In this document: positions 21,249-37,106 of the stretch, piece by piece | Layout of the letters: every line of letters starts with the position of its first letter | Position numbering within the stretch: position 1 is the stretch's first letter | DNA from: Alphaproteobacteria bacterium | Lineage (GTDB): Bacteria > Pseudomonadota > Alphaproteobacteria > JAJTHO01 > CANGXP01 | Assembly (NCBI GenBank): GCA_947457935.1 | Contig: CANGXP010000007.1 | Coordinates: 1-60,444 of the forward strand | Length of the DNA stretch: 60,444 bases | Direction: 5' to 3' | Program-made: the position numbers and the translations under genes | Notes under the pieces: model-generated | Seen by the model: the letters and a program-made list of their open reading frames with translations, nothing else | Databases searched by the model: none | Told to the model about the DNA's origin: nothing

Positions 21249-21276
21249 TTTTTTAACAATTCTATGATATAACGAT

Positions 21277-21627
21277 ATGTACGATGATGTGAAGGTCTGC
21301 GTTTACTATGATGAAAAAGGCTTTTCTTCTTTTGAAGATTGGTTTCTTGCGTTGAAGGATAAAAAATAAAGGCTTCCATCCTCCACAGAATTGGGAGAAT
21401 GGCACGGCGAAATTTTGGTGACTTTAAAAACTTGAAAGAGGGACTCTATGAACTCCGTTTCGAAATTATGGGCGGCGTTCGAGTATACTTTACACAAGAT
21501 GGGGCGAATGTTGTGATTTTGCTCTGTGCAGGAAATAAGCATAGACAAGATAACGATATTAAAAAAGCGCGCCTATATTGATGCCTACAGAGAAGGACAA
21601 GGATATGCCAACCCTACGAAGTTTTGA
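21277..21627 (+). pseudogene. frameshifted addiction-module toxin (COG3657/HigB-like)
   Basis: From the ATG at 21277 the frame reads MYDDVKVCVYYDEKGFSSFEDWFLALKDKK and stops after an A-run near 21366. The next frame continues without loss of homology as KASILHRIGRMARRNFGDFKNL, then YELRFEIMGGVRVYF and ILLCAGNKHRQDNDIKKARLY, where a second stop occurs. A further shift gives YIDAYREGQGYANP to a stop at 21627. Together these rebuild a whole COG3657 killer protein broken by two frameshifts. The first break lies in AAAAAA, so slippage or a sequence error is possible for it. Confidence 0.75.
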
Positions 21628-21862
21628 TGATCTGGTTATAGAGTAGTTGCAGGATCGTGAGCTTGCGGCTGAATACCTCAATGTTGCGTTGGCTGAAGTG
21701 CAAAAAGATGAAGATGTTGTGTACTTTCAGCATTGCTTAGGATTGTTAGCAAGAGCATCAAAGCATAAGGCAGTGGTGGAAGAGAAAATAGGTTTCCCTG
21801 AAATGTTTGGTATTTTGCGACAGGCAGGGCTGAGAGTCAGTGTAGGACAGCCTGTTGGTTAA
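21605..21862 (+). pseudogene. antitoxin of the COG3657 module, interrupted by an amber codon
   Basis: The ATG at 21605 opens MPTLRSFDDLVIE, the usual start of the COG3636 antidote family. Codon 14 is TAG (21644-21646), and the same frame then continues LQDRELAAEYLNVALAEVQ, also as expected for the family, to 21862. A single base change therefore separates it from an intact gene. The C-terminus (FGILRQAGLRVSVGQPVG) fits the helix-turn-helix end. Restart at TTG 21647 would lose part of the N-terminus. Confidence 0.75.
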
Positions 21863-21887
21863 TCAATAATCGAACAAAAAACACACA

Positions 21888-21913
21888 AACCCGCCTTAGT
21901 GCGGGTTTTTTTG
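21888..21913 (+). terminator. intrinsic terminator after the decayed toxin-antitoxin pair
   Basis: AACCCGC-CTTAGT-GCGGGTT followed by TTTTT. It lies upstream of the prohead-protease gene and would stop reading from the head genes before it unless another promoter or antitermination is used. Confidence 0.85.
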
Positions 21914-21925
21914 TAGTCACTCCAC

Positions 21926-22028
21926 TTTAGAAAATTACAGGGCTGCAAACTATCCTTAGCATCGCTTGTGTACGGAAGTGTACACGTCGCTCCGCTGCGG
22001 CTGTTTTCGCCGTCTGTAATTTCCTAAA
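21926..22028. repeat. large imperfect palindrome, family A (copy A3)
   Basis: Arms TTTAG-AAATTACAG and CTGTAATTT-CTAAA enclose a GC-rich stem with the tip GTGTAC-GGAA-GTGTACAC. It lies directly before the prohead-protease gene. Confidence 0.75.
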
Positions 22029-22058
22029 TTGAAACGACTACTTATGGAGAAAACAATC

Positions 22059-22691
22059 ATGCAAAACGAACGACACAACGCGCTGTTTGAACTAAAAGCC
22101 CTTGAGAACACAGGGTTTTTTAAGGGATATGCGAGCGTGTTTAATGTGGAAGATGGGCAGCGGGATGTCATTAAAAAAGGGGCGTTTAGCGAGAATCTAA
22201 AGGCATGGCAGGCAAAGGGTGATTTGCCGAAATTGCTGTGGCAGCATAGCCCCTCTGCGCCGATTGGCGTGCTCACAACATTACAAGAAGACAACTACGG
22301 CTTGTATGTGGAAGGGCAACTGTTGCTGGATGTGACACAAGCCCGTGAGGTCTACGCGCTGATGAAAGCGGGCGCGTTGGATAGCATGTCGATTGGCTAT
22401 CAGGTGGAGCAAGCGCATAGCGAGGGGACTCCTAAAAAACGAATTATTACCAAAATCGCGCTGTGGGAGGTATCTATCGTGACGTTTCCTGCCAATGAAA
22501 AGGCGAAAATTACCGCTGTTAAAGCGGTGAACATTACTGCGCCGCGCGATTTTGAACAATTCCTGCGCGAAGCAGGATTCTCACGGCGTGATGCCGTCTC
22601 GATTACGAATCATGGCTTTAAAGCAATGCCGTTGCAGCGGGAAGCTGCGGATTTGGTGCGCTTAGCCGACACGATTCGTGAACTGATTTAA
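22059..22691 (+). CDS. HK97-family prohead protease (GTA gp4-like)
   Basis: 210 residues from the ATG at 22059, which follows TGGAGAAAA; starts at 22029 and 22044 are less well placed. The U35 protease motifs are present: GYASVFNVEDGQRDVI at the N-terminus, LLWQHSPSAPIGV with the catalytic His (about 66), LDSMSIGYQV with the catalytic Ser (about 116), and LWEVSIVTFPANEKA at about 145. It removes the capsid delta domain during maturation. It sits directly before the capsid gene, the standard order. Confidence 0.93.
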   Translation: MQNERHNALFELKALENTGFFKGYASVFNVEDGQRDVIKKGAFSENLKAWQAKGDLPKLLWQHSPSAPIGVLTTLQEDNYGLYVEGQLLLDVTQAREVYALMKAGALDSMSIGYQVEQAHSEGTPKKRIITKIALWEVSIVTFPANEKAKITAVKAVNITAPRDFEQFLREAGFSRRDAVSITNHGFKAMPLQREAADLVRLADTIRELI

Positions 22692-22711
22692 CCCTTTCAA
22701 GGAGTAACATA

Positions 22712-23914
22712 ATGACAACTTTTGAAATTAAAGCCGCTGTTGATGACCTCGGCAGCGCGTTTGCAGCGTTTAAGGAAGCGAATGATAGACGGTTGCAAGA
22801 ACTGAGCAAAAAACACGCAAGCGATGTGCTGTCTGAAGAAAAAGTAAACCGCTTAAATGGCGAGTTAGACCGCTTGCAAGGACAAGTGGATGGCTTGACG
22901 GCGGCGGTGAAACGCTCGCCTCTTGATGGTTCTGCCCAAAAATATAGTACAGCAGAACGAGAGCAAAAGGCGGCGTTCAACCGTTTTTTGCGGACAGGGC
23001 AGCATGAGGGTTTGCAAGGGTTAGAAGGCAAAGCCATGTCTGTGGGGACAGATGCAGACGGCGGCTTTATGGTGCCTGATATTCTGTATCAACAACTAAC
23101 CCAAACATTGATGGTGCTGTCGCCCATCCGTGCGATTGCGAATGTTATTAACATTGGTGGGGATGCGGTGGATATTTTGGTGGATAACACCGATGCAGGC
23201 TCGGCTTGGGTTGCAGAAACAGCAACACGGGCGGAGACAACCTCACCGCAACTGCAACGCGTGAAAATCACGCCATATGAGTTGTATGCACAACCGCGTT
23301 TAACCCAACAACTGATTGATGACAGCCGTTTTGATGCGGATGCCTTCATCACGCAAAACATTGCCGAGGCTTTCGCCAAAGCAGAGGGCACTGCGTTTGT
23401 TTCAGGCGATGGCACAGGCAAACCTAAAGGTTTCCTTGCTTACAGCGCGGGAACAACATGGGGCACGATTGAGCGCGTGAAAACAGGGGTTGCAGGCAAT
23501 TGGGCGGCAAGTTCTCCCGCTGATGTGCTGGTGGATTTAATGTTCAGGCTGAAAACCAGCTACATGAATGAAGCCTCGTGGTTAGTGAATCGGAGTGTGT
23601 TGTCAGAAATTCGCAAATTCAAAGGTTCTGATAACAATTACTTGTGGCAGCCCAGCACGCAAAGTGGCACGCCGTCTACGTTGCTTGGGTTTAATCTCTA
23701 TCTTGCTGAAGAGATGCCTAATAAGGCAACCGATAGTTTGTCGGTGGCGTTTGGGAACTTTAAGGTGGGGTATACGGTGGTGGATCGTCAAGATGTGCGT
23801 ATCTTGCGGGATCCGTTCTCGGCGAAACCCTACGTTCAGTTTTATGCAACAAAGCGTGTTGGCGGCGATGTGACCAACTTTGAAGCGATTAAGCTGCTTC
23901 AGTTTGGTGTTTAG
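22712..23914 (+). CDS. HK97-fold major capsid protein (GTA gp5-like)
   Basis: This 400-residue protein has an N-terminal coiled-coil delta domain (residues about 1-100, with LSEEKVNRLNGELDRLQGQVD), expected to be cut off by the protease, then the HK97 coat domain starting near VGTDADGGFMVPDILYQQL. The ends of conserved strands (VDNTDAGSAWVAE and QPRLTQQLIDDS) and C-terminal QFYATKRVGGDVTNFEAIK are present. It builds the shell. The frame is fully open and the start follows AAGGAG, so the gene is under selection. Confidence 0.95.
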   Translation: MTTFEIKAAVDDLGSAFAAFKEANDRRLQELSKKHASDVLSEEKVNRLNGELDRLQGQVDGLTAAVKRSPLDGSAQKYSTAEREQKAAFNRFLRTGQHEGLQGLEGKAMSVGTDADGGFMVPDILYQQLTQTLMVLSPIRAIANVINIGGDAVDILVDNTDAGSAWVAETATRAETTSPQLQRVKITPYELYAQPRLTQQLIDDSRFDADAFITQNIAEAFAKAEGTAFVSGDGTGKPKGFLAYSAGTTWGTIERVKTGVAGNWAASSPADVLVDLMFRLKTSYMNEASWLVNRSVLSEIRKFKGSDNNYLWQPSTQSGTPSTLLGFNLYLAEEMPNKATDSLSVAFGNFKVGYTVVDRQDVRILRDPFSAKPYVQFYATKRVGGDVTNFEAIKLLQFGV

Positions 23915-23931
23915 TTATAGCACTTTAGTTA

Positions 23932-24059
23932 GAGGGTAGCGTCATTCTTCGCGAAATCCTTGATTTTCCAAGGATGAAGGTGGAGAATCTATACTGTTTT
24001 ATGGATCTTCCGCCTTCGTCTTCGCTTTGCTCGACTACGCGAAAGATGACGCTCCTCCC
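23932..24059. repeat. large imperfect palindrome, family C, after the capsid gene
   Basis: AGCGTCATTCTTCGCG on the left pairs with CGCGAAAGATGACGCT on the right. Further inward GAAGGTGGAGAATC pairs with GATCTTCCGCCTTC. The tip is near TATACTGTTTTA. It fills the gap between the capsid and connector genes. Confidence 0.75.
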
Positions 24060-24094
24060 TATACCTTAGTATTTCTCTCTAGCCTATCAACTTG

Positions 24095-24132
24095 CAGCCA
24101 TCTCTCATATTGGGAGGTGGCTGTTCTTTTTT
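24095..24132 (+). terminator. intrinsic terminator before the connector gene
   Basis: CAGCCATCTC pairs with GAGGTGGCTG around a 9-base loop, and is followed by TTCTTTTTT. The ribosome site of the connector gene (TTGGAGA) begins at the T-run, so the terminator lies in the untranslated leader of the next gene. Confidence 0.75.
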
Positions 24133-24143
24133 GGAGATTCTCC

Positions 24144-24758
24144 ATGAGTATGACTCTTTTAACGCCCCCGAGTGTTGAACCGCTGACATGGGCGGAAGTG
24201 AAAGCTTTTTTGCGACTGGATAACGACGCGGAACAAAGCCTTGGCAACACGTTTATTATGGCGGCACGGCAGTTGGTGGAAAATTATACAGGGCGTGCGC
24301 TGCTCAGCCAACGTTGGCGCATGAGTTTAGATGCATGGCCGCGCCCTGTGCAGCAATCAAGCTATAGCAATACAGGGTGTGTGGTGAATATGTTTGCACG
24401 CCGCATATTTTTGCCCAAAATCCCTGTGCTTGCCGTTGAAACCATGAAAGTGTTTGCGGCAGACGGCACAAGTATAACTTTACCCGAAACGGTGTATAGC
24501 ATTGACCCGATTTCGGGGAAAGTGGCGTTCTCTAGCAGTGCTGCGTTGGTTGACCCGTCCAAACCAACGGCAGGTATTGAGATTGATTTTAGTGCGGGCT
24601 ATGGCACGACGGCGGACAGTGTCCCCGCGCCGCTTAAACACGCAATGCTGGTGCTGGTTGGTTTAAGTTTTGAGGAGCGTATTCCAGAACACGGCGCATT
24701 GCCGAGTGCTGTTATGTCGTTATTAAAGCCCTATCGGTTTGCGAAAATATCGGTATAG
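24144..24758 (+). CDS. head-tail connector protein (GTA gp6-like)
   Basis: 204 residues from the ATG at 24144 (MSMTLLTPPSVEPLTWAEVK), preceded by TTGGAGA; the longer frame from 24027 runs over a terminator and a repeat and is rejected. The N-terminal PPSVEPLTWAEVKAFLRLD and VENYTGRALLSQRW are typical of phage gp6-like adaptor proteins. The middle has an inserted beta region, and the end PLKHAMLVLVGLSFEERIP fits the C-terminal helix. It attaches below the portal. Confidence 0.88.
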   Translation: MSMTLLTPPSVEPLTWAEVKAFLRLDNDAEQSLGNTFIMAARQLVENYTGRALLSQRWRMSLDAWPRPVQQSSYSNTGCVVNMFARRIFLPKIPVLAVETMKVFAADGTSITLPETVYSIDPISGKVAFSSSAALVDPSKPTAGIEIDFSAGYGTTADSVPAPLKHAMLVLVGLSFEERIPEHGALPSAVMSLLKPYRFAKISV

Positions 24759-24888
24759 GTGCATACGATACTATGTTTTTGCCTGATAAAGTTAGCAGAA
24801 AATAGGGCTGTCTTAAGGGGATTTTAAGGGTTGTGTGGGATTGTAGGAACAGTTCCATCCCCTTTCACCCTTTTTGTTGAGACCTGTT

Positions 24889-25695
24889 ATGACCCAACCT
24901 TGGCAAGCTGCTTTTCATGCTGTCAACAGTAATACGCCGACAGAGCAGTTATTTGCGCTATTGGTGGATGATGTGTATAGCATGATGCGCGGTATTAGCG
25001 GGCTGGGGTTAAATGCGTGTGCGTTTGTGTTGGGCGAGAAATTTGCCTATTTCCGCAACAAAGGGCAACGCCCTGATGCGGAGGCTTTGGGCGAACTTGC
25101 AGCATTATATCGGGTATTGGCACAAGATTTCAAGCAATCCTATTTTGACGAGTTGCAACAGCAGAATCAACAGCAGTTGCTGAAAAGTGTTTACACGAAA
25201 CGTAGTGTTAAAACTAAGGAAGAGGGGCATTTGACACCGCTTGATGTGCAAGTGATGCTGCCGATTTATAATGCGGTATGGCATTTGCATTATCAGGCAT
25301 TCTTAGATGAACCTGCGCTGACGATTTCTGCATGGAATGTGAAAGACACCCATCAAAATCGCGCTATTCGTGCCGTATTGTTTGATATGGATTACGACAG
25401 GCTGGCGTTGCTGTGTTTGATGATGGCGGAATCTTTAAAAGAGGTGCAGGGCGCAAGCAAAAAACTGCAGAAAACTATCGAGGAAAAAGCACGGATTATG
25501 CTGACCATTTTGGCGCACCGCGTTGAAACCCCCGATTATTATGCAGCAGAACTGCTGACGCTTGATAGCCAAGAGCTATACACTGACTTAACAACGCTGA
25601 TTAGTGCGCTGAAAGAACGCAAACCGATGAGCAAAGATTTGTTTGGTTTTGTTGTGCCGTTTCCCAGCAACAACCAAGACAAAACAATTGAATAA
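24889..25695 (+). CDS. unknown helical protein inside the head-tail gene block (1)
   Basis: 268 residues from the ATG at 24889 (MTQPWQAAFHAVNSNTPTEQL). I recognise no family. It is soluble and mostly helical, with a Gln-rich segment (ELQQQNQQQLLKS, about 90-102) and a repeat-like C-terminal half. It and the next gene occupy the space between gp6-like and gp7-like genes, where RcGTA has nothing. A leader with no terminator precedes it (24759-24888). Base use is like the structural genes. It could be an accessory head protein, a regulator or cargo. Confidence 0.65.
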   Translation: MTQPWQAAFHAVNSNTPTEQLFALLVDDVYSMMRGISGLGLNACAFVLGEKFAYFRNKGQRPDAEALGELAALYRVLAQDFKQSYFDELQQQNQQQLLKSVYTKRSVKTKEEGHLTPLDVQVMLPIYNAVWHLHYQAFLDEPALTISAWNVKDTHQNRAIRAVLFDMDYDRLALLCLMMAESLKEVQGASKKLQKTIEEKARIMLTILAHRVETPDYYAAELLTLDSQELYTDLTTLISALKERKPMSKDLFGFVVPFPSNNQDKTIE

Positions 25696-25734
25696 TCAGC
25701 CAAAGATACCCATATAGAGAGAAGAAGCCTCTGA

Positions 25735-26610
25735 ATGAAAAAGCCGCCCAATATGGATTTGCTGAAAACACTCTCAAAAATTGCGCAACGCAATGTGCAA
25801 GGGAAAGCTGTGTCCGCAGAACCCGTATTTATGGACAAGGAAGAATTTTTAGCGCGTGTTACAGTGGAACAAGAACGCTTTAAGCGTCTTTCCGTGGGTC
25901 AGTTGTGTGCCGAATTGATGGCACTGAATGAACATTTACGCTCTTCAAAAGAACCTGAGGTGCGCGGACTGATTGAGCTACGCGCCATGACGCTGGTGTT
26001 GGTAGAAAAATATTTTTGTGAACCGCTAAAACCGTTCACGATGGCCGCAACGCATGAAGCAATGAATACGTTGTTTGTAGAACGTTATGTGTTTGGCACG
26101 GATACGGAAAAATCGTGGTTGCGGTTGATTACGGAGTGTTTGACAGGCTTTCATAAGCTGGAAATGACGCATGATCCGCTGCATTGGTTGGTTGATTGGA
26201 ACCCGATGGACTCTCGCGTGCATCAGGCAAAAGTCTCCCTGCTTGATAAGGGTACGCCAAAAACGCTGACCGAACTATTTTTGTTGTTAAGTGAGCGTGA
26301 GGTTGCACTTCTTTCGGGCACTATAAAAGCAGATGATGGGGAGCAGCGGGCTGCAGGCAACTTATGGCAGTCTATTAGTGATACAAGGATGATGCGCAGT
26401 GCGGTGGAGGTGTATTGGTGCAATCACCCACTTGTGCCTAAGGATTATCGGCATTTTATTTTGGAAAAAACCCCGCAGGCGCAACTAGCGTTTTTGCAGG
26501 CGAAGAAACAGCAATTGTTTATGTTAGGTGTTCCTGTGAAAAAGCAGGCGCGCGCTAAAACAACGGAAGATGTGATGGCGAGTTCGTCGTTTACGCTCTA
26601 CCAACAATAA
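25735..26610 (+). CDS. unknown helical protein inside the head-tail gene block (2)
   Basis: 291 residues starting MKKPPNMDLLKTLSKIAQRN. No recognised domain, signal peptide or membrane segment. It has a conserved-looking Trp/His core (HDPLHWLVDWNPMDSRVH, about 140-157) and a basic C-terminal end (VPVKKQARAKTTEDV). It follows the other unknown gene by 39 bases, and a family A palindrome closes the pair, so the two look like one inserted cassette. Confidence 0.65.
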   Translation: MKKPPNMDLLKTLSKIAQRNVQGKAVSAEPVFMDKEEFLARVTVEQERFKRLSVGQLCAELMALNEHLRSSKEPEVRGLIELRAMTLVLVEKYFCEPLKPFTMAATHEAMNTLFVERYVFGTDTEKSWLRLITECLTGFHKLEMTHDPLHWLVDWNPMDSRVHQAKVSLLDKGTPKTLTELFLLLSEREVALLSGTIKADDGEQRAAGNLWQSISDTRMMRSAVEVYWCNHPLVPKDYRHFILEKTPQAQLAFLQAKKQQLFMLGVPVKKQARAKTTEDVMASSSFTLYQQ

Positions 26611-26628
26611 CTTTTTTCTACTTCTACT

Positions 26629-26731
26629 ATGTCTTGCTGCAAATGCCTGTTCCTTGCGCTTCCGTTGCTCATGTACTAAGAAGTACACTGCGCTACGGTT
26701 CTCAGAAACTGTCATTTTCGCTAGCGACCTA
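26629..26731. repeat. large imperfect palindrome, family A (copy A4)
   Basis: It starts TATGTCTTGCTGCAAATG and ends CATTTTCGCTAGCGACCTA, with the tip CATGTAC-TAAGAA-GTACACTGCG. It is nearly identical to copy A5 at 41253-41376 between tyrS and the helicase gene, and related in inverse orientation to A6 at 30948-31094. Confidence 0.85.
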
Positions 26732-26747
26732 GCGAAGTATAAAAAAG

Positions 26748-26811
26748 TATAATTTTATATATATATCAATATTTTAAAAAGACTCGTTAGGAAACTAGCG
26801 GGTCTTTTTTT
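26748..26811 (+). terminator. -10-like box and intrinsic terminator before the gp7-like gene
   Basis: TATAAT at 26748-26753 is followed about 20 bases later by a hairpin, AAAGAC-TCGTTAG-GAAA-CTAGCGG-GTCTTT, and seven T residues (26776-26811), 22 bases before the next gene. No good -35 box is seen. If the -10 box is real, the terminator would act as an attenuator; if not, it ends the upstream cassette. Confidence 0.65.
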
Positions 26812-26833
26812 ATGCCTCAAAAGGATAAAGACG

Positions 26834-27163
26834 ATGCACACGCTTAACACATTGACACAGCGGGTCACCCTACAACAGCCTGTTTATACGGCGAATGCGA
26901 GTGGAGGGCGGACAACAACATGGAGTACAGTCACCGATTTATGGGCGAATGTGACGGCAAAACCGCTCAATGTGGCGGTGGTGGCAGAGCAAAAACAGGT
27001 AGCCAATCGCTATACGGTGACGGTGCGCAATATTGTGACGATTGAGGAAAGTATGCGATTTTTGTGGCAGGGGCGCAGTTTACGCGTTGTCGGGCTGCCG
27101 CCTGTGACAGCTGAGAGTTTGTATCGGGAAATTGACTGCACTGATGCGTTAACAATGGAGTAA
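26834..27163 (+). CDS. head-tail joining (head closure) protein (GTA gp7-like)
   Basis: This 109-residue protein starts MHTLNTLTQRVTLQQPVYTANASGGRTTTWSTV. It has the small beta-barrel pattern of phage head closure proteins, including TDLWANVTAKP, YTVTVRN, MRFLWQGRSLRVVGLPP and a C-terminal YREIDCTDA. It bridges the connector and tail. It is four bases from the next gene, so gp7-gp8 form a tight unit. Confidence 0.88.
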   Translation: MHTLNTLTQRVTLQQPVYTANASGGRTTTWSTVTDLWANVTAKPLNVAVVAEQKQVANRYTVTVRNIVTIEESMRFLWQGRSLRVVGLPPVTAESLYREIDCTDALTME

Positions 27164-27166
27164 AAT

Positions 27167-27565
27167 ATGGAAAAAGATATGAGTTTTACGGTGCAGGGTG
27201 TTATCTATACCGTGCTGACAGGAGATGGTGCGTTGATGGCAAAAATCAACGAGGTGTATGATGTTGCTCTCGAAGGGGCGGTGTTACCCTATATTACCAT
27301 CGGGCAAGATGTGGCGCGGGCATGGAACACCAAAAGCAAAGACGGGCAAGTTTTTGATGTGAGCGTTCACTCATTTTCAGGTCAAGAAAATTTAGCGGAA
27401 GCCAAAGGCATCGCCGAAGAAGTGTATAGATTACTGAAAAACATGAGTTTCTTGTTGGGGGATGGCACATTGGTGCGCTCTACCTACTTGCAAACAGCGA
27501 CAACGGTTGTACGGCGGCAGGTGGTGGATGTGGAGCAGACGTTTCGGGTGTATGTGCAGAAGTAG
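27167..27565 (+). CDS. tail terminator protein, DUF3168 (GTA gp8-like)
   Basis: This 132-residue protein has the DUF3168 pattern: FTVQGVIYTVLTGDGALMAKI, VYDVALEGAVLPYITIGQ, QVFDVSVHSFSGQENLAEAKGI (read as separate landmarks), and a C-terminal VVDVEQTFRVYVQ. It caps the tail tube on the head side. Start 27167 has GGAG six bases upstream; Met at 27179 is an alternative. A TGAG/CTCA dyad lies within it at 27360-27373. Confidence 0.87.
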   Translation: MEKDMSFTVQGVIYTVLTGDGALMAKINEVYDVALEGAVLPYITIGQDVARAWNTKSKDGQVFDVSVHSFSGQENLAEAKGIAEEVYRLLKNMSFLLGDGTLVRSTYLQTATTVVRRQVVDVEQTFRVYVQK

Positions 27566-27653
27566 GCAATAGGCGAGAGTAGGGAGGCGGGAGGAAAGGG
27601 GAAAGCCTTACTGTCGCCTCCTGCCTTTTGTCTCCTGCCTTTAAAAAGGAACT
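27566..27653. repeat. palindromic repeat, family B, between gp8- and gp9-like genes
   Basis: AGGCGAGAGTAGGGAGGCGG on the left is mirrored by CGCCTCCTGCC and TCTCCTGCCTTT on the right. It starts at the gp8 stop codon and ends at the ribosome site of gp9. Confidence 0.75.
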
Positions 27654-27659
27654 TTTCAT

Positions 27660-28058
27660 ATGACATTTTATTTCGGACGCGACTTTCAGTTGCGCGTCAT
27701 CAGCGGCGGTGCGCCTATTTTAGTGGGCGGGCTGACCACCACAGATTTTGCGGTGAACACAACTGTATTGGAGGCAAGTAGCCCACAAAATGGCGCGTGG
27801 CAACAACGGGTGAGTGGACTGCGCAATGTGCGTATCAGTGCAGAAGGCGTGTTTGAAGATTCAGCCGCCGAAGCCTTGTTACGGGCGACTGCCTTAGGCG
27901 GCAATGCGATTGAGTGTTCACTCATTTTTGCGGGGGGTGATACGCTACAGGGATTTTTTGTGGTGAACCGTTATGAACGGGCGGGAACAATGGCGGAGAT
28001 GGAAAGCTATCGTCTCACGCTCGAGTCCGCAGGAACATTGACGTATACAGGAGCATAA
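27660..28058 (+). CDS. major tail protein, TP901-1 type (GTA gp9-like)
   Basis: This 132-residue protein starts MTFYFGRDFQLRVISGGAPI and includes the family stretch VSGLRNVRISAEGVFEDSAAE and the end MAEMESYRLTLESAGTLTYT. In RcGTA it builds the tail tube. Here the next gene, 2 bases on, is the gp12-like DUF2460 gene. The chaperone and tape-measure genes that should follow are absent. A perfect TGAGTG-TT-CACTCA dyad lies at 27911-27924. Confidence 0.88.
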   Translation: MTFYFGRDFQLRVISGGAPILVGGLTTTDFAVNTTVLEASSPQNGAWQQRVSGLRNVRISAEGVFEDSAAEALLRATALGGNAIECSLIFAGGDTLQGFFVVNRYERAGTMAEMESYRLTLESAGTLTYTGA

Positions 28059-28060: not shown

Positions 28061-28681
28061 ATGCCAGCATTTCACGAGATACGCTTAGCGGAAGACATTT
28101 CTTATGGCAGCAGCGGGGGGCCTGAATTTTCGACCACCATTGTTGCCTCACTCTCAGGGTTCGAGCAACGCAACGTGAATTGGAGCGCGGCACGGGCTAA
28201 ATATAATGTTGCCTACGGCGTGCGGACGGAGCAGCAGTTAGAGGCGTTGCTGGCGTTCTTTCGCGCTCGTCAAGGCAAGGCATTCGGCTTTCGCTATAAA
28301 GATTGGACGGATTATCAATCAGCAGCGTTGATAACCCCTACTGACCAATTACTCGGCACGGGTAATGGGGTGAAAACAGCGTTTCAATTGGTGAAAAGTT
28401 ACACTTCGGGCAGTGTTACTGTTGCACGGACGATTAGTAAACCTGTAGCGGGTACGGTGCGGGTGTCATTAGCGGGAACAGAGCTGACCAGCGGCTTTAC
28501 GGTGGATAATACAACAGGTATTGTGACGTTCACCACGCCGCCTGCGAGTGGCGTTTTGGTTAAGGCAGGCTTTCAGTTTGATGTGCCTGTGCGGTTTGAT
28601 ACGGATAGTTTATCGGCAACGTTGGATAGTTACGGCATAACGTCCCTGCAAAGTGTGCCTGTTGTTGAGGTTCGGCTATAA
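28061..28681 (+). CDS. distal tail protein, DUF2460 (GTA gp12-like)
   Basis: This 206-residue protein starts MPAFHEIRLAEDISYGSSGGPEFSTTI. It has the DUF2460/TIGR02217 marks NVNWSAARAKYNVAYG, FFRARQGKAFGFRYKDWTDY and, at the end, VRFDTDSL-x-ATLDSYG. In RcGTA the protein forms the distal tail ring that connects the tube to the hub. Immediate succession to gp9 means the tube, if any, has no length ruler encoded here. Confidence 0.92.
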   Translation: MPAFHEIRLAEDISYGSSGGPEFSTTIVASLSGFEQRNVNWSAARAKYNVAYGVRTEQQLEALLAFFRARQGKAFGFRYKDWTDYQSAALITPTDQLLGTGNGVKTAFQLVKSYTSGSVTVARTISKPVAGTVRVSLAGTELTSGFTVDNTTGIVTFTTPPASGVLVKAGFQFDVPVRFDTDSLSATLDSYGITSLQSVPVVEVRL

Positions 28682-28780: not shown

Positions 28781-28808
28781 CTTAACAATATTAAATGAGT
28801 GTTCATTT

Positions 28809-29660
28809 ATGAAAACTTTAACAACAAACATTGTGGCAGAAGCGGTGACAACCCTTGCGTTGTGCTATCGGCTGACGCGCACGGATGGCGTGATACTCAC
28901 CTTCACCAGCCTTGATAGGGATTTAGCCTTAAGTGGCGTGACCTATCGCGCCACAACCAGCCTAAGTGCCACCGCCATTGAAAGCACGGCAGATTTACGG
29001 GTGGACAACCTTGATGTGGAGGGCATCTTAAGCGATGACAGCATCACGGCGGAAGATTTACTGAGCGGTGTGTATGATAACACGTTGGTGGAAGTGTTTT
29101 TGGTGGATTATACGAATCCCCCTGCCGCCATTACGCCGCAAACAGTGCTGTGGTTGCGTTCTGCCTATATTGCAGAGATTCGCATTAGTGACGGTAAGTT
29201 TATAGCAGAATTGCGCGGGCTTGCATCAAAACTCGGCGCAATACCGATGGAGGTGTATACGCCCACCTGTCGCGTGAAAAAGTTGGGCGATGCGCGGTGT
29301 AAGGTCAATACCGCCGCCTATACCTTCAGTTATACGGTGGCCACATTATTGAGTGAGCGTTCATTTACGCATAGCAGCACCGCACAAGCAGATGGATACT
29401 TTCAGTTTGGCACGTTAAAATGGACAACAGGCGCGAACGTAGGGCGCGAGGCAAGCATTAAAACCTATACTTCGGGCGTGATAGAATTGTTGGAACCCCT
29501 GCCGTTTGCGCTTGCGGTGGGGGATGCGTTTACTGCCATTCGGGGTTGTAATCGGCAATTTGCCACCTGCCGCGATGTGTTCAATAATTTGGCAAATTTT
29601 CGTGGCGAGCCACCGCATCTGCTTCCCGGGATTGATAAGTTGATTAGCCCGTTGGGCTAG
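28809..29660 (+). CDS. baseplate hub protein, DUF2163 (GTA gp13-like)
   Basis: 283 residues from the ATG at 28809 (MKTLTTNIVAEAVTTLALCYRL). The longer frame from 28653 runs over a repeat and is rejected. DUF2163/TIGR02218 features are present: DGVILTFTSLDRDLALSGVTY, the cysteine motif PTCRVKKLGDARCKV (about residue 154-168), and the C-terminal GCNRQFATCRDVFNNLANFRGEPHLPG-type block with further cysteines. RcGTA gp13 is an Fe-S-containing hub protein; the cysteines are all kept here. Confidence 0.92.
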   Translation: MKTLTTNIVAEAVTTLALCYRLTRTDGVILTFTSLDRDLALSGVTYRATTSLSATAIESTADLRVDNLDVEGILSDDSITAEDLLSGVYDNTLVEVFLVDYTNPPAAITPQTVLWLRSAYIAEIRISDGKFIAELRGLASKLGAIPMEVYTPTCRVKKLGDARCKVNTAAYTFSYTVATLLSERSFTHSSTAQADGYFQFGTLKWTTGANVGREASIKTYTSGVIELLEPLPFALAVGDAFTAIRGCNRQFATCRDVFNNLANFRGEPPHLLPGIDKLISPLG

Positions 29661-30276: not shown

Positions 30277-30549
30277 ATGAATCTTACATTTGAAAAAATC
30301 AACGCCGCTTTTATCGAAGAAGACCTAGAAGGATTTATTGAGGAAGGCGCACCTGCTGATGAATATAGTTCAGAAGCACAAAGCGTTGCAGAAGCCTTGG
30401 CAAAAATTCCTATGGAAAAAATCACCATGTCTGTTGTGGCGGCGACGATTGCGTTGGTGTGGGCAAAAAGTTTTGGAAGAACAGCGGCGGAGATGGAACA
30501 ACGACTTCCTGCGTGCCAACGTCTTGCCGAAAAACTGTTAACACCATGA
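30277..30549 (+). CDS. probable immunity protein for the preceding toxin
   Basis: 90 residues from the ATG at 30277 (MNLTFEKINAAFIEEDLEGFIEEGAPADEYSSEAQ, given as a landmark in two parts: MNLTFEKINAAFIEED and GAPADEYSSEAQ). It is small, strongly acidic and helical, and the G-A-P-x-D-E-Y-x-x-E-A pattern resembles DUF1871-like immunity proteins. It follows the toxin by 10 bases and overlaps the gp14-like start (ATGA), so toxin, immunity and peptidase are translated from one message. The immunity role is inferred from order, size and charge. Confidence 0.6.
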   Translation: MNLTFEKINAAFIEEDLEGFIEEGAPADEYSSEAQSVAEALAKIPMEKITMSVVAATIALVWAKSFGRTAAEMEQRLPACQRLAEKLLTP

Positions 30550-30959
30550 ACCCCTTTGCAACGGAGGCGACCCAATGGCTCGGCACGCCGTTTCATCCTC
30601 ATGCTGCTCTTAAAGGCGTGGGGTGTGATTGCTATGGGTTGATTGCAGGGGTGTATAGCGCGGTGACAGGGCTTGAAGTTGTTTTACCCACAGACTATCC
30701 GCCGCAGTGGCGGGTGATTGCCGACTATGCGCCGCGCTATCGTGAACATTTACTCACTTTTGCGGAACGGGTTGTAACCCCTGTGGCAGGCGATGTGCTG
30801 GTGTTTGCTATCAATGGCAGAGAGGCGCATTTGGGGATATTAGTGAATGAACATTCATTCATTCATGCGCGGGGGGAGCGGGGCGTGGGCACGGTGTGCC
30901 TGAATGATTTTAAGGAGAAGTGGCGGAAGCGCCATCACTCAACGTACAGGTTCTGTTGA
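30546..30959 (+). CDS. NlpC/P60 cysteine peptidase of the tail hub (GTA gp14-like)
   Basis: 137 residues from the ATG at 30546. ATQWLGTPFHPHAALKGVGCDCYGL gives the WLGTP-x-x-H and G-C-D-C-x-G-L core with the catalytic Cys (about 29). His in EAHLGILV (about 98) and a later His complete the triad. In RcGTA gp14 cuts peptide bonds in peptidoglycan during DNA entry. The reading frame is intact. Its last codons fall within a family A palindrome. Confidence 0.9.
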   Translation: MNPFATEATQWLGTPFHPHAALKGVGCDCYGLIAGVYSAVTGLEVVLPTDYPPQWRVIADYAPRYREHLLTFAERVVTPVAGDVLVFAINGREAHLGILVNEHSFIHARGERGVGTVCLNDFKEKWRKRHHSTYRFC

Positions 30960-31113: not shown

Positions 31114-32739
31114 ATGGCAACACTGGTTTTTGCAGCAGCCGCTTCGGCGGTGGGGACAAGCGCGGGTTTGAGCACCCTTGGCACCACGATTCTCGCAACC
31201 GCAGCCAGCGTCGCGGGCAGCTATGTGGATAATGCCCTCACAGGGGCGGGGCAACAGGGCACGCGGCTTAATACCACGGTTCTTGAGATTCCGCAGGTGT
31301 TGTCTTCCAGTTATGGACGGGCGATTCCGTTGGTCTATGGCACAGCGCGGGTGGCGGGTAACGTGATTTGGATGAGCAAACCTACGGTGACAACGATTAG
31401 TCACACGCAAAATGTACGGTCAGGCAAGTTCTCCAGCAAAACGGTGACGGCGGGGACAGAGCGCTATACGCTGGCAGATATGGCGATTGCGTTGACATCC
31501 GTGCCCTCGCTCTTGGCAAATAACGTGGTGGGCAGCGCCAGTGATGAGGATGATCAGATTGTCTTTAAAACGCGGGGTGGGATTGTGGCGGTGCGGCGCA
31601 TTTGGGCGGATAGCCAGCTTATTTATGATGCGCGAACGTTTAACCTCTCGGCAGAGCAAACTAACAATTATACGTTTGAGGCTCTTTATGATGGGCAGGA
31701 GACGCAAACGGCGGATGATTTAATCGAAAGTATTGTGGGGGCTGGGAATGTGCCCGCGTTTCGGGGCTTAGCGTATATTTTGCTTACGGAGGTGCGCCTC
31801 AGTGACTTTGGCAATCGCGTGCCGAATTTCACCATGGAGGTGGTTGCAAGTTTGCCAAAAGTAGTGTGCGAAGAAACGCCACAAGGGTTGGCGGAAAATG
31901 CAGCAGGCGATATTTTCGTGAGTAATACCTTGCGCCGCACGATTACCCGCTTTGATAGCAAAACGCTGAAAACAAAGGCAACGCTGGGCAGAGCAGGCGT
32001 GGAGAATGACTATTTAGGGACGTTGAAAGCCATGCCGTGGGGCTTAGTTGTAACCCCTGATGGCGATATTTGGGTGACAGCACAGGGCGATGCAACCGTG
32101 CAGCGGCTTAATCCCGATACAGGGGCGGTGATTGCCAATATCGCGGTGGGGAATTATCCTAGAGAGATGGTGGTGGATAATGCAGGGTTTGTGTGGGTGA
32201 CATTCCCGACGCTGAATCAGGTTAGCAAGATTAATCCGAGTACCAATACGGTTGCGGCGAGTTATACTGTGAGCGGTGCGCCATGGGCAATTTGCAAGGG
32301 GCTTGATGGCAATCTGTGGGTAACAACCAACAGCGAGGTGGTACGCCTTAACCCCACAACGGGCGCGGAAATTGCGCGGATTAGCGTAGGGCTATTCCCG
32401 TGGGGCATTGCCTGCAACCCTGTGACGGGCGCGATTTGGACGGCGTTAAGCGGGGAAGATATTCTTGTGATTATTGACCCCGCCACAAACACGGTGGTGA
32501 AACAGCGCAATACGGGGACGTATCCCACTGCTGTGAGCACGAGCGCAACGGATGAATACGGTAGTGTGGCGGTGACGCTCCTTTATGGCAACCAACTGAA
32601 AGTGTATTCACGCACCTATAGTGAATTGCTGGAATATGGCACAGTGGCGTTTCCCGCCAATTGTCTGCATCGCGCCAATGGCGAGGTGGTGGTGACGCAA
32701 AGTAAATATGATTTTGTGATGGTGGCGGAGGGGAGGTAG
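31114..32739 (+). CDS. tail hub N-terminal domain fused to a beta-propeller (gp15-like, part 1)
   Basis: This 541-residue protein has residues 1-245 that match the start of RcGTA gp15/rcc01698: an Ala/Gly-rich opening MATLVFAAAASAVG, then SSSYGRAIPLVYGTARVAGNVIW, and FRGLAYILLTEVRLSDFGNRVPNFTMEV. Residues 250-541 are about six repeats of some 42 residues with the blade pattern PWGLVVTPDGDIWVT...V-x-R-L-N-P-x-T-G, a streptogramin-lyase/NHL-like beta-propeller. In RcGTA this place holds a TIM-barrel glycosidase domain. The propeller may bind a cell-surface ligand. The rest of gp15 is encoded downstream beyond a tRNA gene. Confidence 0.8.
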   Translation: MATLVFAAAASAVGTSAGLSTLGTTILATAASVAGSYVDNALTGAGQQGTRLNTTVLEIPQVLSSSYGRAIPLVYGTARVAGNVIWMSKPTVTTISHTQNVRSGKFSSKTVTAGTERYTLADMAIALTSVPSLLANNVVGSASDEDDQIVFKTRGGIVAVRRIWADSQLIYDARTFNLSAEQTNNYTFEALYDGQETQTADDLIESIVGAGNVPAFRGLAYILLTEVRLSDFGNRVPNFTMEVVASLPKVVCEETPQGLAENAAGDIFVSNTLRRTITRFDSKTLKTKATLGRAGVENDYLGTLKAMPWGLVVTPDGDIWVTAQGDATVQRLNPDTGAVIANIAVGNYPREMVVDNAGFVWVTFPTLNQVSKINPSTNTVAASYTVSGAPWAICKGLDGNLWVTTNSEVVRLNPTTGAEIARISVGLFPWGIACNPVTGAIWTALSGEDILVIIDPATNTVVKQRNTGTYPTAVSTSATDEYGSVAVTLLYGNQLKVYSRTYSELLEYGTVAFPANCLHRANGEVVVTQSKYDFVMVAEGR

Positions 32740-32808
32740 AAGGGGGCTAGGCACTAGGGTTTAGGCATTGGGGGAAGTGCATAGAAATCATCAGAATGCG
32801 TTAGAAAA

Positions 32809-33183
32809 CTAGTCAGCTAATTTTTTACAGGTACCATCAAAAAATCCTGTTGTTGGTGTTTTTAAGGCAAGAATTTTGCTCAGCTTTGAAAACTGTCCAA
32901 CGAACGAATTATCCTTGTAGATTTGAATTATATCTCCAATATCTGAAATTTCATCGTAATAATACATTAATTCATTTGGAATTTCAGTGTAGAAAATGCC
33001 ATCGGATTTGCTCCAAAGGTGAACCCAGAATCTAAATTCATTGAGTTTAATGAAAATTTTCCCTGCAGTTTTCTGATCTGCTGAAGAAAATACTCCATCG
33101 CACTCATATTTTGATTGAATTTCTGAAAACTTAATTTGCACAAGAAGCAAAACAGCAAACAGAGCAAAAAGTAGTTTTTTCAT
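32809..33183 (-). CDS. small secreted hypothetical protein
   Basis: This 124-residue protein on the opposite strand to the cluster starts MKKLLFALFAVLLLVQIKFSE, a signal peptide, followed by YECDGVFSSADQKTAGKIFIKLNEFRFWV (landmarks YECDGVFSSAD and FRFWVHLW). Two cysteines (Cys35 and one near the end, DGTCKKLAD) could form a disulphide. AT-rich compared with neighbours. It lies next to a duplicated end of tRNA-Ser and may have come with an integrated element. Confidence 0.6.
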   Translation of the reverse strand: MKKLLFALFAVLLLVQIKFSEIQSKYECDGVFSSADQKTAGKIFIKLNEFRFWVHLWSKSDGIFYTEIPNELMYYYDEISDIGDIIQIYKDNSFVGQFSKLSKILALKTPTTGFFDGTCKKLAD

Positions 33184-33235
33184 AAGATCTTTACCTCAAA
33201 ATCTGCTTTGAAGATGGTTTCTTTTAGCTTCTAAA

Positions 33236-33256
33236 AATGGCGGAGAGAAAGGGATT
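33236..33256. repeat. duplicate of the tRNA-Ser 3' end (possible att site)
   Basis: Twenty-one bases here are identical, in direct orientation, to 33388-33408, the 3' end of the tRNA-Ser gene on the minus strand (tRNA residues through the acceptor stem and CCA). Integrases commonly leave such a copy. A broken second tRNA gene is the alternative. Confidence 0.65.
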
Positions 33257-33337
33257 GACTTGACGCTTTGCGTCTGCGCCGCCACGGCGGGCTGTTGCCC
33301 TTGTGGTCGAACGTCGTTCTCATCCCACATCTCGTGT

Positions 33338-33390
33338 ATTTCAATAAAACAGGGGGGCGTTGTTACGCTTATCCCCTGTTTTATTGAAAT
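33338..33390. terminator. 18-bp-arm perfect hairpin downstream of tRNA-Ser
   Basis: ATTTCAATAAAACAGGGG and CCCCTGTTTTATTGAAAT are exact mirrors separated by 17 bases. It begins at the tRNA CCA end and probably ends tRNA transcription on the minus strand, since the arm is A/T-rich at the outer side. Confidence 0.7.
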
Positions 33391-33480
33391 GGCGGAGAGA
33401 AAGGGATTCGAACCCTTGATACGGTTACCCGTATACACACTTTCCAGGCGTGCGCCTTCAACCACTCGGCCACCTCTCCG
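33390..33480 (-). tRNA. tRNA-Ser (anticodon GGA), CCA encoded
   Basis: On the minus strand CGGAGAGGTGGCCGAGTGG opens the gene. Acceptor arms CGGAGAG and CTCTCCG pair, the anticodon loop is CTGGAAA (GGA), a long variable arm follows as in tRNA-Ser, and the T loop is GGTTCGAATCC. CCA is encoded at 33392-33390. It stands inside the GTA-like cluster, opposite to it. Confidence 0.95.
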
Positions 33481-33539
33481 TTTTGATTCTGTGCGGTCAT
33501 TCTACAGAAGAGCAAACACGCTATATAAAGGTCAACAAC

Positions 33540-34919
33540 ATGTCAATTTCTTTCGGAACAGACACCAGCCCGCTTGCGGCAAGCGCATTGCCGAGCATTA
33601 ACGTTGGTTTGGGCTGGTATAACAACAATCGCAAACGTCTGAAAAAGTTTGCAACGCAATACATGGCACTTGATACTGCAGCGGTGGCAACGCTGAAAAG
33701 TCAAGGCGAGGCGGATGTGTCAACGAGTGCGGTGCAATCGTCACGGGCGGGGTTTAATGAATTGCGGGTGCGGTTGCCTGTGCTCAACCAGTATTACACC
33801 TATACAGGGATGCATGGGGGGACGGCTGATGCGTCTGTGCTTGCGAAAATTAAGGCGATTATCCTTGATTGGGCAACAAAAAATAATCCCACAGGAAAGC
33901 CCATTGATGAAACCAATTTTGAAAATCTGCTGCGCGTTGCCAAGGCACGGTGGGCGGATTTTAACATGAGTGAACAATCACTCATTGCCGCGTGGGTGAC
34001 TAAGCTGAAAATAGCAAAAGAAACGTGGTCATTCACGCCGCTTTTAGGCGAAGGGCAATTACAATACGGCAATCACTATACGCACCATTATAAAATTTTA
34101 TTGCAGGTCTATGATTTTTTAGGGCTTACCAGTCATTACAATGCTTTGCTTGCAACGATAGATAGCTTTGCGGCGGTGAATTTTCCGTTTGGTAATGCCG
34201 CGGTGACGTATCCCATGACACGCGCTGTGGTGGGGGCTAATAAAAGTGAACAGCGATTTGATATAAATGGGAATTATCTGTCAAGATTTGTGGCAGGGGG
34301 GACGATTATCATCACAGGCAACACGCAAGGCAATAACGGGACGTTTACGATTGCATCGGCAAGTTATCTGAGCGGTTCTGACAAAACGCGCATTTTTGTG
34401 CAGCAAACACTGGCGAATGATGGCGGTGGCGGGACATTACAAGAGGTGTTTCATCCAAACGGTCACGCCATCCCCCGTGCGGCAACGGATGTTGGCGAGA
34501 GCATTGATTACATCAGGCGGGACGCGCTGCATTATCAGAATTATGATCTTGAACCATGGCTGGAAATCGCGCTGCTGGCAGGGGGCACGCGCTATCAAAC
34601 GATTGTGGATAATGCGTTTAATTTTTTAAGCACTAATGTGTTGAACCCTCCTGCAAAACACTATGAGTTTGCAGCAAGCACCGATCCATTTGATGCGGAA
34701 CGCTGGAGTGTCTCGAACACCGCCTATTTGCAGCCAGAGGCGATGTATCATCCTGATAAAATGGCGCGGTGTGTATTTACCTATCAGTATTATAAACAAG
34801 GGCTTGTCCCCAGTTTTATGGTGGATGAGCGTTTGTTCACGCTTGCAGTGCGGTCGGATATTCTGCCGAGTGCGTGGTATTATTATTTTCGTTGGGCATT
34901 TGGGGGGATTTATGGCTGA
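33540..34919 (+). CDS. alginate-lyase-like protein with inserted beta domain (putative tail depolymerase)
   Basis: 459 residues from the ATG at 33540; the longer frame runs through the tRNA and is rejected. The helical body has QYGNHYTHHYKILLQVYDFL (about 175-194) and, after an inserted beta-rich segment (about 236-302, with IIITGNTQGNNGTFTI), IRRDALHYQNYDLEPWLEIA (about 325-344). Both recall the N-x-H and R-x-x-ALxYHxYxLxPL motifs of PL5/PF05426 mannuronate lyases. It overlaps the following hub gene by 8 bases, so a particle role is likely. The substrate is not known, and catalysis is inferred. Confidence 0.6.
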   Translation: MSISFGTDTSPLAASALPSINVGLGWYNNNRKRLKKFATQYMALDTAAVATLKSQGEADVSTSAVQSSRAGFNELRVRLPVLNQYYTYTGMHGGTADASVLAKIKAIILDWATKNNPTGKPIDETNFENLLRVAKARWADFNMSEQSLIAAWVTKLKIAKETWSFTPLLGEGQLQYGNHYTHHYKILLQVYDFLGLTSHYNALLATIDSFAAVNFPFGNAAVTYPMTRAVVGANKSEQRFDINGNYLSRFVAGGTIIITGNTQGNNGTFTIASASYLSGSDKTRIFVQQTLANDGGGGTLQEVFHPNGHAIPRAATDVGESIDYIRRDALHYQNYDLEPWLEIALLAGGTRYQTIVDNAFNFLSTNVLNPPAKHYEFAASTDPFDAERWSVSNTAYLQPEAMYHPDKMARCVFTYQYYKQGLVPSFMVDERLFTLAVRSDILPSAWYYYFRWAFGGIYG

Positions 34920-36519
34920 TGTACAAAGCGTCGTGCAGGATTTGTTGCGGCAGGCGGGTTTTAGCGCGTCTCAGGTGAATTATACGGCTCTTGAAGGGGC
35001 ACTCTCAGGGCTGGTTATCAGCGACAGAAGTGATATTCGCAATGTGGTGGAGCAACTGCAAGCCTTCTATCAGTTTGATAGTATTGAGAAAGATGGGGTG
35101 CTGACGTTCATTCCGCGTGGCAAACAAAGCGTGATGACCATAAACGAGGCAGATTTTCTGCCGAATAGCTTTACCATTACGCGTTTGCCCGATGTGCAGT
35201 TGGCAGAGCAATTGAATGTAACCTATGCCGATAAAGCGAGTGACTATCAAACCGTGACGCAATCAGCGGTACGGCAGCTTGCGCCTGCAAGTAGTCAAAA
35301 AACGGTAAAAACCAACTTTGTGCTGGCGGCAGAGGTGGCGAAACGGCAGGCGGATACGCTGCTGGACGCGGTGTGGGTGGAGCGGTTTCAGTGCAAATTC
35401 TCTTTGCCCTTAAAATATGCGGTGTTGGAAGCGGGCGATGTGGTGACACTGACCACCGCTGCGAAAACTTTTGTGGTGCGGATTACGCGCACGCTGTATC
35501 AGAATGCGAGTTTACAGGTGGAAGCCGTGACAACGGATGCGGCGGCGTATATTCAGACAAGTTTTGGTACAACCCGCCCCTCGAGTCAAATTGTGGTGGC
35601 AACGGGCAAGAGCAGGCTATTTTTGCTGGATATTCCTCTCTATAATGAGGCAGACGACAGCCCGAGTTTCTTCATGGCGGTGAGCAAACAGCGCGATGAT
35701 ATAAGCTGGCAATATGCAACCGTCTATGAATCGTTAGGCGACAACATCTATACCCCAAAAACGGTGATAACCAAGGAGGCAATCACGGGCAAAGCCACCA
35801 CGGTATTGAGTGGGACTGCGCCAACTGCCTACCTTGATGAAAAAAATACCGTCACCGTGACGCTGAATGATGGCACGCTTGCCAGTACCACCGATGCCTT
35901 GTTGCTGCGGGGTGCGAATGTGGCGTTGTTGGGCGATGAGTTGCTTCAGTTTGGCGTGGCAACGTTGGTGGGCACGCATACCTATCAGTTGTCACGGCTG
36001 CTTAGGGCGCGACGCGGCACGGATGCAGCTATGCTCACCCATGCAATTAACGAACGATTTGTGCTATTGGGGGAGGAAATTTTCCAACAACCCGCTGGCT
36101 TATTGAATGTGACATATACCTATAAAGCGGTGTCCTCAGGGCAATTGCTGGACGATGCGAGTGAGTATTCATTCACGCCTGCAGCCGCAAATTTAAAGCC
36201 GTTATCGCCTGTGCATGTTGCAGGGGCGCGGGATAGTAGTGGGAACTTAACGATAACATGGATACGCCGTAGCCGAGCCAACACAGGCTGGCAAGATGGC
36301 ATTGAACTGCCGCTTGCAGAGGCTTTTGAGCAATACGATGTGGACATGATGAACGGGGCAACCGTGGTGCGGACACTCACCACCACCAGTCCCACAACGC
36401 TTTACACCGCCGCGCAACAAGTCACAGATTTTGGATCTGTGCAAAGTGCGGTAGTTGCGAAAATTTACCAACGTTCAGCCGTCATCGGCAGAGGCGTTGG
36501 GAGAACAGCTATTGTATAG
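34912..36519 (+). CDS. tail hub C-terminal part (gp15-like, part 2)
   Basis: 535 residues from the ATG at 34912 (MADVQSVVQDLLRQAGFS). It covers the putative phage tail protein region (PF13550-like: VVQDLLRQAGFSASQVN, GVLTFIPRG, LPDVQLAEQLNVTYADKASDYQ) and the rcc01698 C-terminal region (YQLSRLLRARRGTDAAMLTH and ERFVLLGEEIF). These are found in one polypeptide of about 1300 residues in RcGTA. Here the hub is spread over 31114-32739 and this gene, with a lyase gene between. A TGAGTATTCATTCA dyad-like site lies at 36162-36175. Confidence 0.85.
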   Translation: MADVQSVVQDLLRQAGFSASQVNYTALEGALSGLVISDRSDIRNVVEQLQAFYQFDSIEKDGVLTFIPRGKQSVMTINEADFLPNSFTITRLPDVQLAEQLNVTYADKASDYQTVTQSAVRQLAPASSQKTVKTNFVLAAEVAKRQADTLLDAVWVERFQCKFSLPLKYAVLEAGDVVTLTTAAKTFVVRITRTLYQNASLQVEAVTTDAAAYIQTSFGTTRPSSQIVVATGKSRLFLLDIPLYNEADDSPSFFMAVSKQRDDISWQYATVYESLGDNIYTPKTVITKEAITGKATTVLSGTAPTAYLDEKNTVTVTLNDGTLASTTDALLLRGANVALLGDELLQFGVATLVGTHTYQLSRLLRARRGTDAAMLTHAINERFVLLGEEIFQQPAGLLNVTYTYKAVSSGQLLDDASEYSFTPAAANLKPLSPVHVAGARDSSGNLTITWIRRSRANTGWQDGIELPLAEAFEQYDVDMMNGATVVRTLTTTSPTTLYTAAQQVTDFGSVQSAVVAKIYQRSAVIGRGVGRTAIV

Positions 36520-36590: not shown

Positions 36591-36620
36591 TACCTTTTTA
36601 CAGCAATGGAGATTACAGTT

Positions 36621-37106
36621 ATGCCAACCCCCAGACTTTCTTTTCCCTATATCGAAACGCAACAAGCACAAAAAGAGGTGACACACGCAGACAGCCTCAA
36701 CCGCTTGGATGCATTGGTGCAAGCGGCCGTTGAAGACAAAGATCTTGCTACACCGCCAAGCAGCCCCGCAGAAGGCGTGGTATATATTGTGGCTGCTAGT
36801 CCTACAGGAGCATGGGCAGGACAGGCGGGGAAACTCGCGCAATTCATTGGTGGCGTGTGGAAGTTTTACACCCCCGCAACTGGCTGGCAAGTGTGGGTGA
36901 AAGACGAAAAACGCGTGCTGTTTTATGATGGCAGCGCGTGGCAAACTCCACTCCCTGTTGTGCCTTCTTATACCGTTGCGGGCTTACCGAGTGCAAGTGT
37001 TGCCGCCAATTTGATTTATGTGAGCAATGAAAGCGGCGGGGCGGTTCTCGCGTTTTCTGATGGGACGAATTGGCGGCGGGTGACGGATAGGGCGATTGTT
37101 AGTTAA
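36621..37106 (+). CDS. DUF2793 phage/GTA-associated protein
   Basis: 161 residues from the ATG at 36621 (MPTPRLSFPYIETQQAQKEVTHADSL, landmarks LSFPYIETQQAQKEVTH). This is the DUF2793 start (L-x-x-P-Y-x-x-x-x-Q-A-Q-K-x-V-T-x-N/H), followed by GAWAGQAGKLAQFIGGVWKF and DGTNWRRVTD, all typical. DUF2793 proteins follow the hub gene in many alphaproteobacterial GTA-like and prophage clusters and may be fibre or decoration components. The starts at 36579 and 36606 are alternatives. Confidence 0.85.
   Translation: MPTPRLSFPYIETQQAQKEVTHADSLNRLDALVQAAVEDKDLATPPSSPAEGVVYIVAASPTGAWAGQAGKLAQFIGGVWKFYTPATGWQVWVKDEKRVLFYDGSAWQTPLPVVPSYTVAGLPSASVAANLIYVSNESGGAVLAFSDGTNWRRVTDRAIVS

Follow-up and report, generated by a model that had tools for sequence, protein, structure and literature searches.

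Gene Content of the Locus

The window, i.e., the whole stretch of 60,444 nucleotides analysed here, contains a GTA-type gene cluster, the features of which are compiled in Table 1. Capsid, terminase, portal and protease genes are present in GTA order, as judged from Pfam matches, and the reading frames of both the hub genes and the main head genes are intact, matching their families over the full length. A tape-measure gene (gp11) was found neither between the tube gene, which ends at 28058, and gp12, which starts at 28061 (2 nt apart), nor by a match elsewhere, with the search for PF09718 being a weak test, since a GTA-bearing control also gave no match. The promoter/terminator scan of the locus was uninformative.

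Table 1. Features of the split-hub locus with their positions in the window.
Feature	Position	Strand	Basis or remark
GTA-type head and tail-tube genes	16673..28058	+	terminase, portal, protease, capsid, connector, head completion, terminator, tube
gp12, distal tail protein (DUF2460)	28061..28681	+	closest to split-hub phages
gp13, hub protein	28806..29660	+	closest to split-hub phages
gp14, NlpC/P60 peptidase	30540..30959	+	
gp15N-propeller	31114..32739	+	iris/penetration and adhesin-like part of the megatron (residues 1 to about 250), then seven-bladed propeller (about 255-541)
Propeller domain, located where RcGTA gp15 has its peripheral (TIM-barrel) domain	31876..32736	+	pLDDT and Foldseek
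800-nt interruption between gp15N-propeller and lyase-like gene	32740..33539	.	minus-strand ORF 32809-33183 and tRNA-Ser(GGA) 33390-33479
Polysaccharide-lyase-like protein, 459 aa, not gp15-derived	33540..34919	+	Pfam PF05426 in relatives, AlphaFold, Foldseek
Beta insert within the lyase-like protein (residues about 220-305)	34197..34454	+	alignment, model, Foldseek
gp15C	34912..36519	+	central and fibre-binding domains of the megatron; family and gp15 matches
DUF2793 protein, possible fibre	36615..37106	+	after gp15C in phages too

Between the portal and protease genes (19933-21248) lie two overlapping genes for probable membrane proteins, the first without a Pfam match, and two genes of 273 and 291 aa, without Pfam or NCBIfam match, are located between the connector and head-completion genes (24874-26610). 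The segment from gp13 to gp14 (29670-30549) encodes a DUF4258-like protein with a DPNQPRVPAGSPDGGQW motif and a small acidic ORF; the DUF4258 match (E = 0.0041) is below the cut-off, there is no NCBIfam match, and the two genes are possibly a toxin and immunity pair.

Due to the minus-strand ORF and the tRNA-Ser gene that separate them, gp15N-propeller and the lyase-like gene are probably not part of one transcript in the window. The tRNA-Ser(GGA), which lies within the hub module and is probably the resident copy, has its 3' end repeated exactly over 22 nt at a distance of 152 nt and is accompanied by an 18-bp perfect inverted repeat; this arrangement (33235-33479 as a whole) looks like an integration scar; in the related genome G003, an integrase-like gene adjoins the orthologous tRNA (L175).

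Two Genes for the Megatron Hub

The RcGTA megatron gp15 is composed of an iris (residues 1-46), an adhesin-like (47-229), a peripheral (230-744), a central (745-984) and a fibre-binding domain (985-1304) (PMC7296036). In the window, homologous parts are encoded by two genes. The product of the first, gp15N-propeller (541 residues), aligns in phmmer with the RcGTA gp15 chain (6TBA/6TEH) via its residues 1-108 (gp15 1-105) and 190-256 (gp15 148-214) at a whole-protein E-value of 2.2e-16, confirming the assignment of its N-terminal ~245 residues to gp15 that had been made in the original prediction; it is also matched by the PHROG 4271 tail protein (E = 1.8e-47) and NCBIfam GTA_megatron (E = 2.4e-42, 144.9 bits). 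The propeller region gives Vgb_lyase, SGL and NHL matches. In the AlphaFold model, residues 255-540 have a pLDDT of mostly >90, and the first 250 residues show a low-confidence fold. Since the solved folds closest to the propeller by TM-score in Foldseek are seven-bladed (the designed v13WRAP-T, TMt 0.87; Vgb lyase, 0.83) and the six-bladed Pizza6 scores lower (about 0.72 TMt), seven blades are assigned rather than the about six proposed earlier, whereas the proposed fusion of gp15N to a propeller holds. The propeller alignment contains no invariant histidine, by which a streptogramin-lyase role is ruled out.

The second gene, gp15C, begins within the lyase-like gene, the last 8 nt of which it shares. 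Residues 5-530 of its product correspond to gp15 767-1297 (E = 1.6e-30), Phage-tail_3 (E = 1.1e-35) and Rcc01698_C (E = 2e-24) domains are present, and positions 760-1297 of GTA_megatron match with E = 3.1e-104 and 349.9 bits. The two hub genes cover complementary gp15 ranges (1-214 and 767-1297), in agreement with the earlier claim that the N- and C-terminal parts reside in separate genes; the hub is, however, divided between two genes only and not three, with the gene between them being lyase-like and not gp15. From these matches and the domain layout of RcGTA gp15 it follows that the absent part is the peripheral domain. The predicted lack of a TIM barrel was corroborated by GTA_TIM (PF13547), which matched neither the window's genome, including the remainder of the locus, nor any of the other three genomes from this order, with the Caulobacter control being positive.

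The NCBIfam entry for the GTA megatron (NF048004), with a cut-off of 800 bits, refers to a single chain of ~1300 residues. Both hub genes score far below this cut-off individually, and together they supply homologous N-terminal, central and fibre-binding domains. In L047, the homologue is a single chain in which gp15N is fused directly to gp15C, without peripheral domain or PF13547; the junction, therefore, tolerates change.

The Lyase-Like Protein between the Hub Halves

The protein encoded between the hub halves has neither a PHROG nor a gp15 match, and, given its lyase-like fold in addition, a gp15 fragment is ruled out. With the alginate lyase family PF05426, the window protein alone gives E = 0.018 and 14.9 bits, which is below the gathering cut-off of 22.2; 13 of the 17 members of the lyase-like family are matched at E-values of up to 0.05 (best E 1.2e-5). 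The AlphaFold model is helical (pLDDT 82.5) and resembles PL38 BoPL38 and PL5 Smlt1473 with a Foldseek probability of 1.0, but remotely (E about 2.5e-3, TMt 0.50-0.62). The product is likely a lyase-like protein, for which a helical-toroid fold is predicted. Residues N178, H182, H183, R327, H331, Y332 and Y335 are invariant in the family alignment. The counterpart of Y335 in Smlt1473 is the last tyrosine of the motif RALHYHDY, a catalytic residue.

The beta insert resembles a domain of the phi92 and K1F endosialidase tailspikes in Foldseek and is missing from some aligned relatives; in a BFVD fold search with the lyase-like protein, it was mainly this insert that was matched. Among annotated phages, the lyase-like protein has no match; it weakly resembles lyase-like proteins encoded on Burkholderiaceae chromosomes. 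Although missed in the original prediction, its gene is probably the most informative part of the locus for cell contact. A fragment of a second lyase-like gene is located at a contig end elsewhere in the window's genome (L068, G000:C61, 1-375).

Occurrence of the Module in Phages

While a viral scan with gp15N-propeller as a single sequence gave no matches and alignments were needed, searching with a profile of the lyase-like protein brought up 19 viral contigs, which include near-copies of one another and are not 19 independent cases. gp15N-propeller precedes the lyase-like gene in 19/19 of these contigs, and gp15C follows it in all 18 that are long enough. The module genes overlap as TAATG and ATGA in L064 and L065, and in L160 a gap of ~540 nt separates the first two; L157, carrying DNA polymerase-like and helicase-like genes, reads as a phage. 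One chromosome outside the order, that of the Rhodospirillales MAG BROCD014 (L075), also has the module, located after gp12-gp13-gp14. Because the same gene order is present in the viral contigs and in this MAG, the split is an established phage module and not decay.

In 15 phage contigs (L153-L166, L168), an extra, bare gp15N of about 205-208 residues is encoded directly upstream of gp15N-propeller; it is absent from L064, L065, L152, L075 and the window, while L167 begins too late to tell. The bare gp15N sequences form one clade in the gp15N tree. Their presence next to gp15N-propeller suggests a mixed hub with two kinds of N-part.

Relatives within the Order

The order is represented by four genomes, i.e., that of the window and G001, G002 and G003. 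A survey of 385 genomes of the class yielded the lyase-like protein in these four, together with one weak match. In G001, as in the window, bioB and GH108 are neighbours of the lyase-like gene, gp15C and DUF2793. gp15N-propeller is present in G002, and gp15N was not found in the fragmented drafts G001 or G003; the capsid gene is also present in these two. In both G002 and G003, gp15C is on a different contig from the lyase-like gene, which sits apart, among unrelated genes. Simple counting for this one genome pair indicates purifying selection, with dN/dS values of 0.095 (lyase-like gene), 0.31 (gp15C) and 0.085 (a transporter as control).

Next to GTA pieces in the relatives, toxin-antitoxin-like genes were recognised from translations, namely VapBC-like genes between gp15C and DUF2793 in G001 (L021), HigBA-like genes after gp15N-propeller in G002 (L020) and a VapC-like gene before gp15C in G003 (L023). 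Contig C62 of G001 (L022) holds a second lyase-like copy with a partial gp15C, and a RelE-like gene, likewise read from translations, lies between lyase-like gene and gp15C. Contig C88 of G002 (L024, 1-2548) shows a rearranged order, with gp15C followed directly by a terminase gene whose product is 55% identical to that of the window. In L013 (G056:C1), a gp15 match is part of an uninterrupted frame that spans 32,612 aa, far longer than any known gene, which is perhaps masked sequence or due to another genetic code.

Origin of Head and Tail Tip

In the gp15C tree, 17 of the 18 split sequences form a clade (94/98), with only L075 unplaced, and a single origin for all split forms is not rejected (p = 0.37). 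The sequences of the window, G001 and G003 group in a supported clade (98/94), which together with the phages L152, L064 and L065 makes up a set of six rows (100/100), and it is with these same phages that the window groups in the gp15N tree. The capsid, on the other hand, shares about 45-54% identity with the better of its GTA-type matches from across the class, versus 42.5% with the best annotated phage, and gp6 and the tail tube also match the standard GTA. gp12 and gp13 are closer to phages than to the standard GTA (57 vs. 49% and 51 vs. 36%, respectively). The border between GTA-like and phage-like genes lies between the tail tube and gp12, exactly where the tape-measure gene would sit.

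Since gp15C of the host is nested among phages and the head genes follow those of alphaproteobacterial GTAs, the element looks like a GTA whose tail tip derives from phages. The split arrangement would have arisen in phages, and an ancestor of the order, equipped with the usual GTA head genes, probably acquired the phage module including gp12-gp14. In this exchange, the tape measure would have been lost or have remained at another site; since no tape-measure gene was found, the particle may be non-functional. The original prediction of a clear change in the cell-contact part of a GTA stands insofar as a propeller occupies the peripheral slot; however, this change was not invented within the GTA but is an established phage module.

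Proposed Function and Alternative Explanations

We assign a probability of roughly 0.6 to the reading that the locus encodes a phage-acquired tail-tip module belonging to a GTA-like element of Alphaproteobacteria, with the megatron gp15 made as two polypeptides, a propeller standing for the TIM barrel and a lyase-like gene lying in between; the gene architecture, homology, conservation and predicted folds are observed, and assembly, enzyme activity and a role in transfer are inferred. gp13, gp15N and gp15C would form a trimeric hub of the usual kind, positioned below the distal tail protein, while the propeller would form an outward-facing binding surface, replacing the peripheral domain. The lyase-like protein, either virion-associated or released, would cleave acidic surface or biofilm polysaccharide and would serve this order as the tailspike TspA serves the GTAs of Rhodobacterales. 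That the host surface target may change, as originally suggested, is plausible.

We see about even odds for the wider view that the split megatron is a previously undescribed tail-tip class, comprising a hub N-part with propeller, a free hub C-part, a dedicated lyase-like protein and, in many phages, a second bare N-part suggesting a mixed hub, and that at least one bacterial order has swapped its GTA tail tip for this phage module, keeping the lyase-like protein as its TspA equivalent. Searches of open-licence papers, with the terms used, gave no description of a split megatron.

Unlikely, but the most serious among the alternatives, is a decaying prophage or GTA remnant from which nothing is assembled, with the split, the tRNA interruption and the absent tape measure as marks of decay. 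The empty tape-measure slot without a match elsewhere, the tRNA and minus-strand ORF within the unit and the dispersal of module pieces in G002 and G003 would all agree with it; however, phages conserve the very same split, intact frames with full-length family matches are found for the hub and main head genes, and the lyase-like gene is under purifying selection between G002 and G003.

It is more improbable still that the host kept these proteins for another task, the lyase-like protein being a lone secreted polysaccharide-degrading enzyme and the hub genes bystanders. The lyase-like gene follows gp15N-propeller in every one of the 19 viral contigs and overlaps gp15C in the window, which speaks against such a task, even if it is more constrained than gp15C by dN/dS and weakly similar to chromosomal genes of Burkholderiaceae. 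Its position apart, among unrelated genes, in G002 and G003 also fits a separate task, but RcGTA TspA is likewise encoded outside its own cluster (PMC13420450). Finally, an assembly or frameshift artefact, conceivable in a draft assembly of 72 contigs, is refuted by identical gene borders in many viral contigs and other bacterial genomes.

As a probably phage-acquired tail-tip module of a GTA-like element, the locus points to tail-tip exchange between phages and GTAs, which bears on the question of which cells receive DNA. The peripheral slot of gp15 is shown to be modular, accommodating a TIM barrel, no insert, or a chain break with propeller and lyase-like gene. The megatron is used as a marker protein of GTA-type baseplates (PMC13420450); with its two parts in separate genes, neither of which reaches the family threshold, the split megatron could be missed by surveys.

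Comparison with Known Systems

The N- and C-terminal parts of the hub are homologous to the RcGTA megatron gp15 (Rcc01698; 6TBA/6TEH; NF048004) and occur in the same order after gp12-gp13-gp14. While the RcGTA megatron is one chain with a TIM-barrel peripheral domain, two chains are present here, a propeller is added and the TIM barrel is lacking. The megatron of roseophage R4C (8GTC) belongs to the same hub lineage and has a carbohydrate-binding domain added in the peripheral region, as an insert in a mannanase-like domain (PMC10276861); unlike the split hub, it is a single chain. A precedent for a hub of several chains is that of lambda (gpL/gpI/gpJ; PMC13243795), where, however, the gpJ-like part is one chain, whereas the corresponding part is divided here.

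RcGTA TspA is a detachable, biofilm-degrading tailspike that contacts the peripheral domain of the megatron and that its authors found in Rhodobacterales but not in other megatron-encoding Alphaproteobacteria (PMC13420450). The lyase-like protein would be analogous to it in its proposed role as glycan-degrading protein of a GTA tail tip and is a candidate for this role beyond the Rhodobacterales, i.e., in a group from which TspA was not reported. TspA is, however, a right-handed beta-helix trimer, in contrast to the predicted helical toroid of the lyase-like protein, which, in addition, is encoded inside the hub module.

Virginiamycin B lyase (Vgb) and gp15N-propeller have the propeller fold in common, but the catalytic histidine of Vgb has no invariant counterpart. 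The lyase-like protein is predicted to resemble PL38 BoPL38 and PL5 Smlt1473 in a helical-toroid fold and has a RALHYHDY-like motif; it differs from these remotely similar enzymes by its own tailspike-type beta insert, which not all family members possess, and by having phage tail genes as neighbours.
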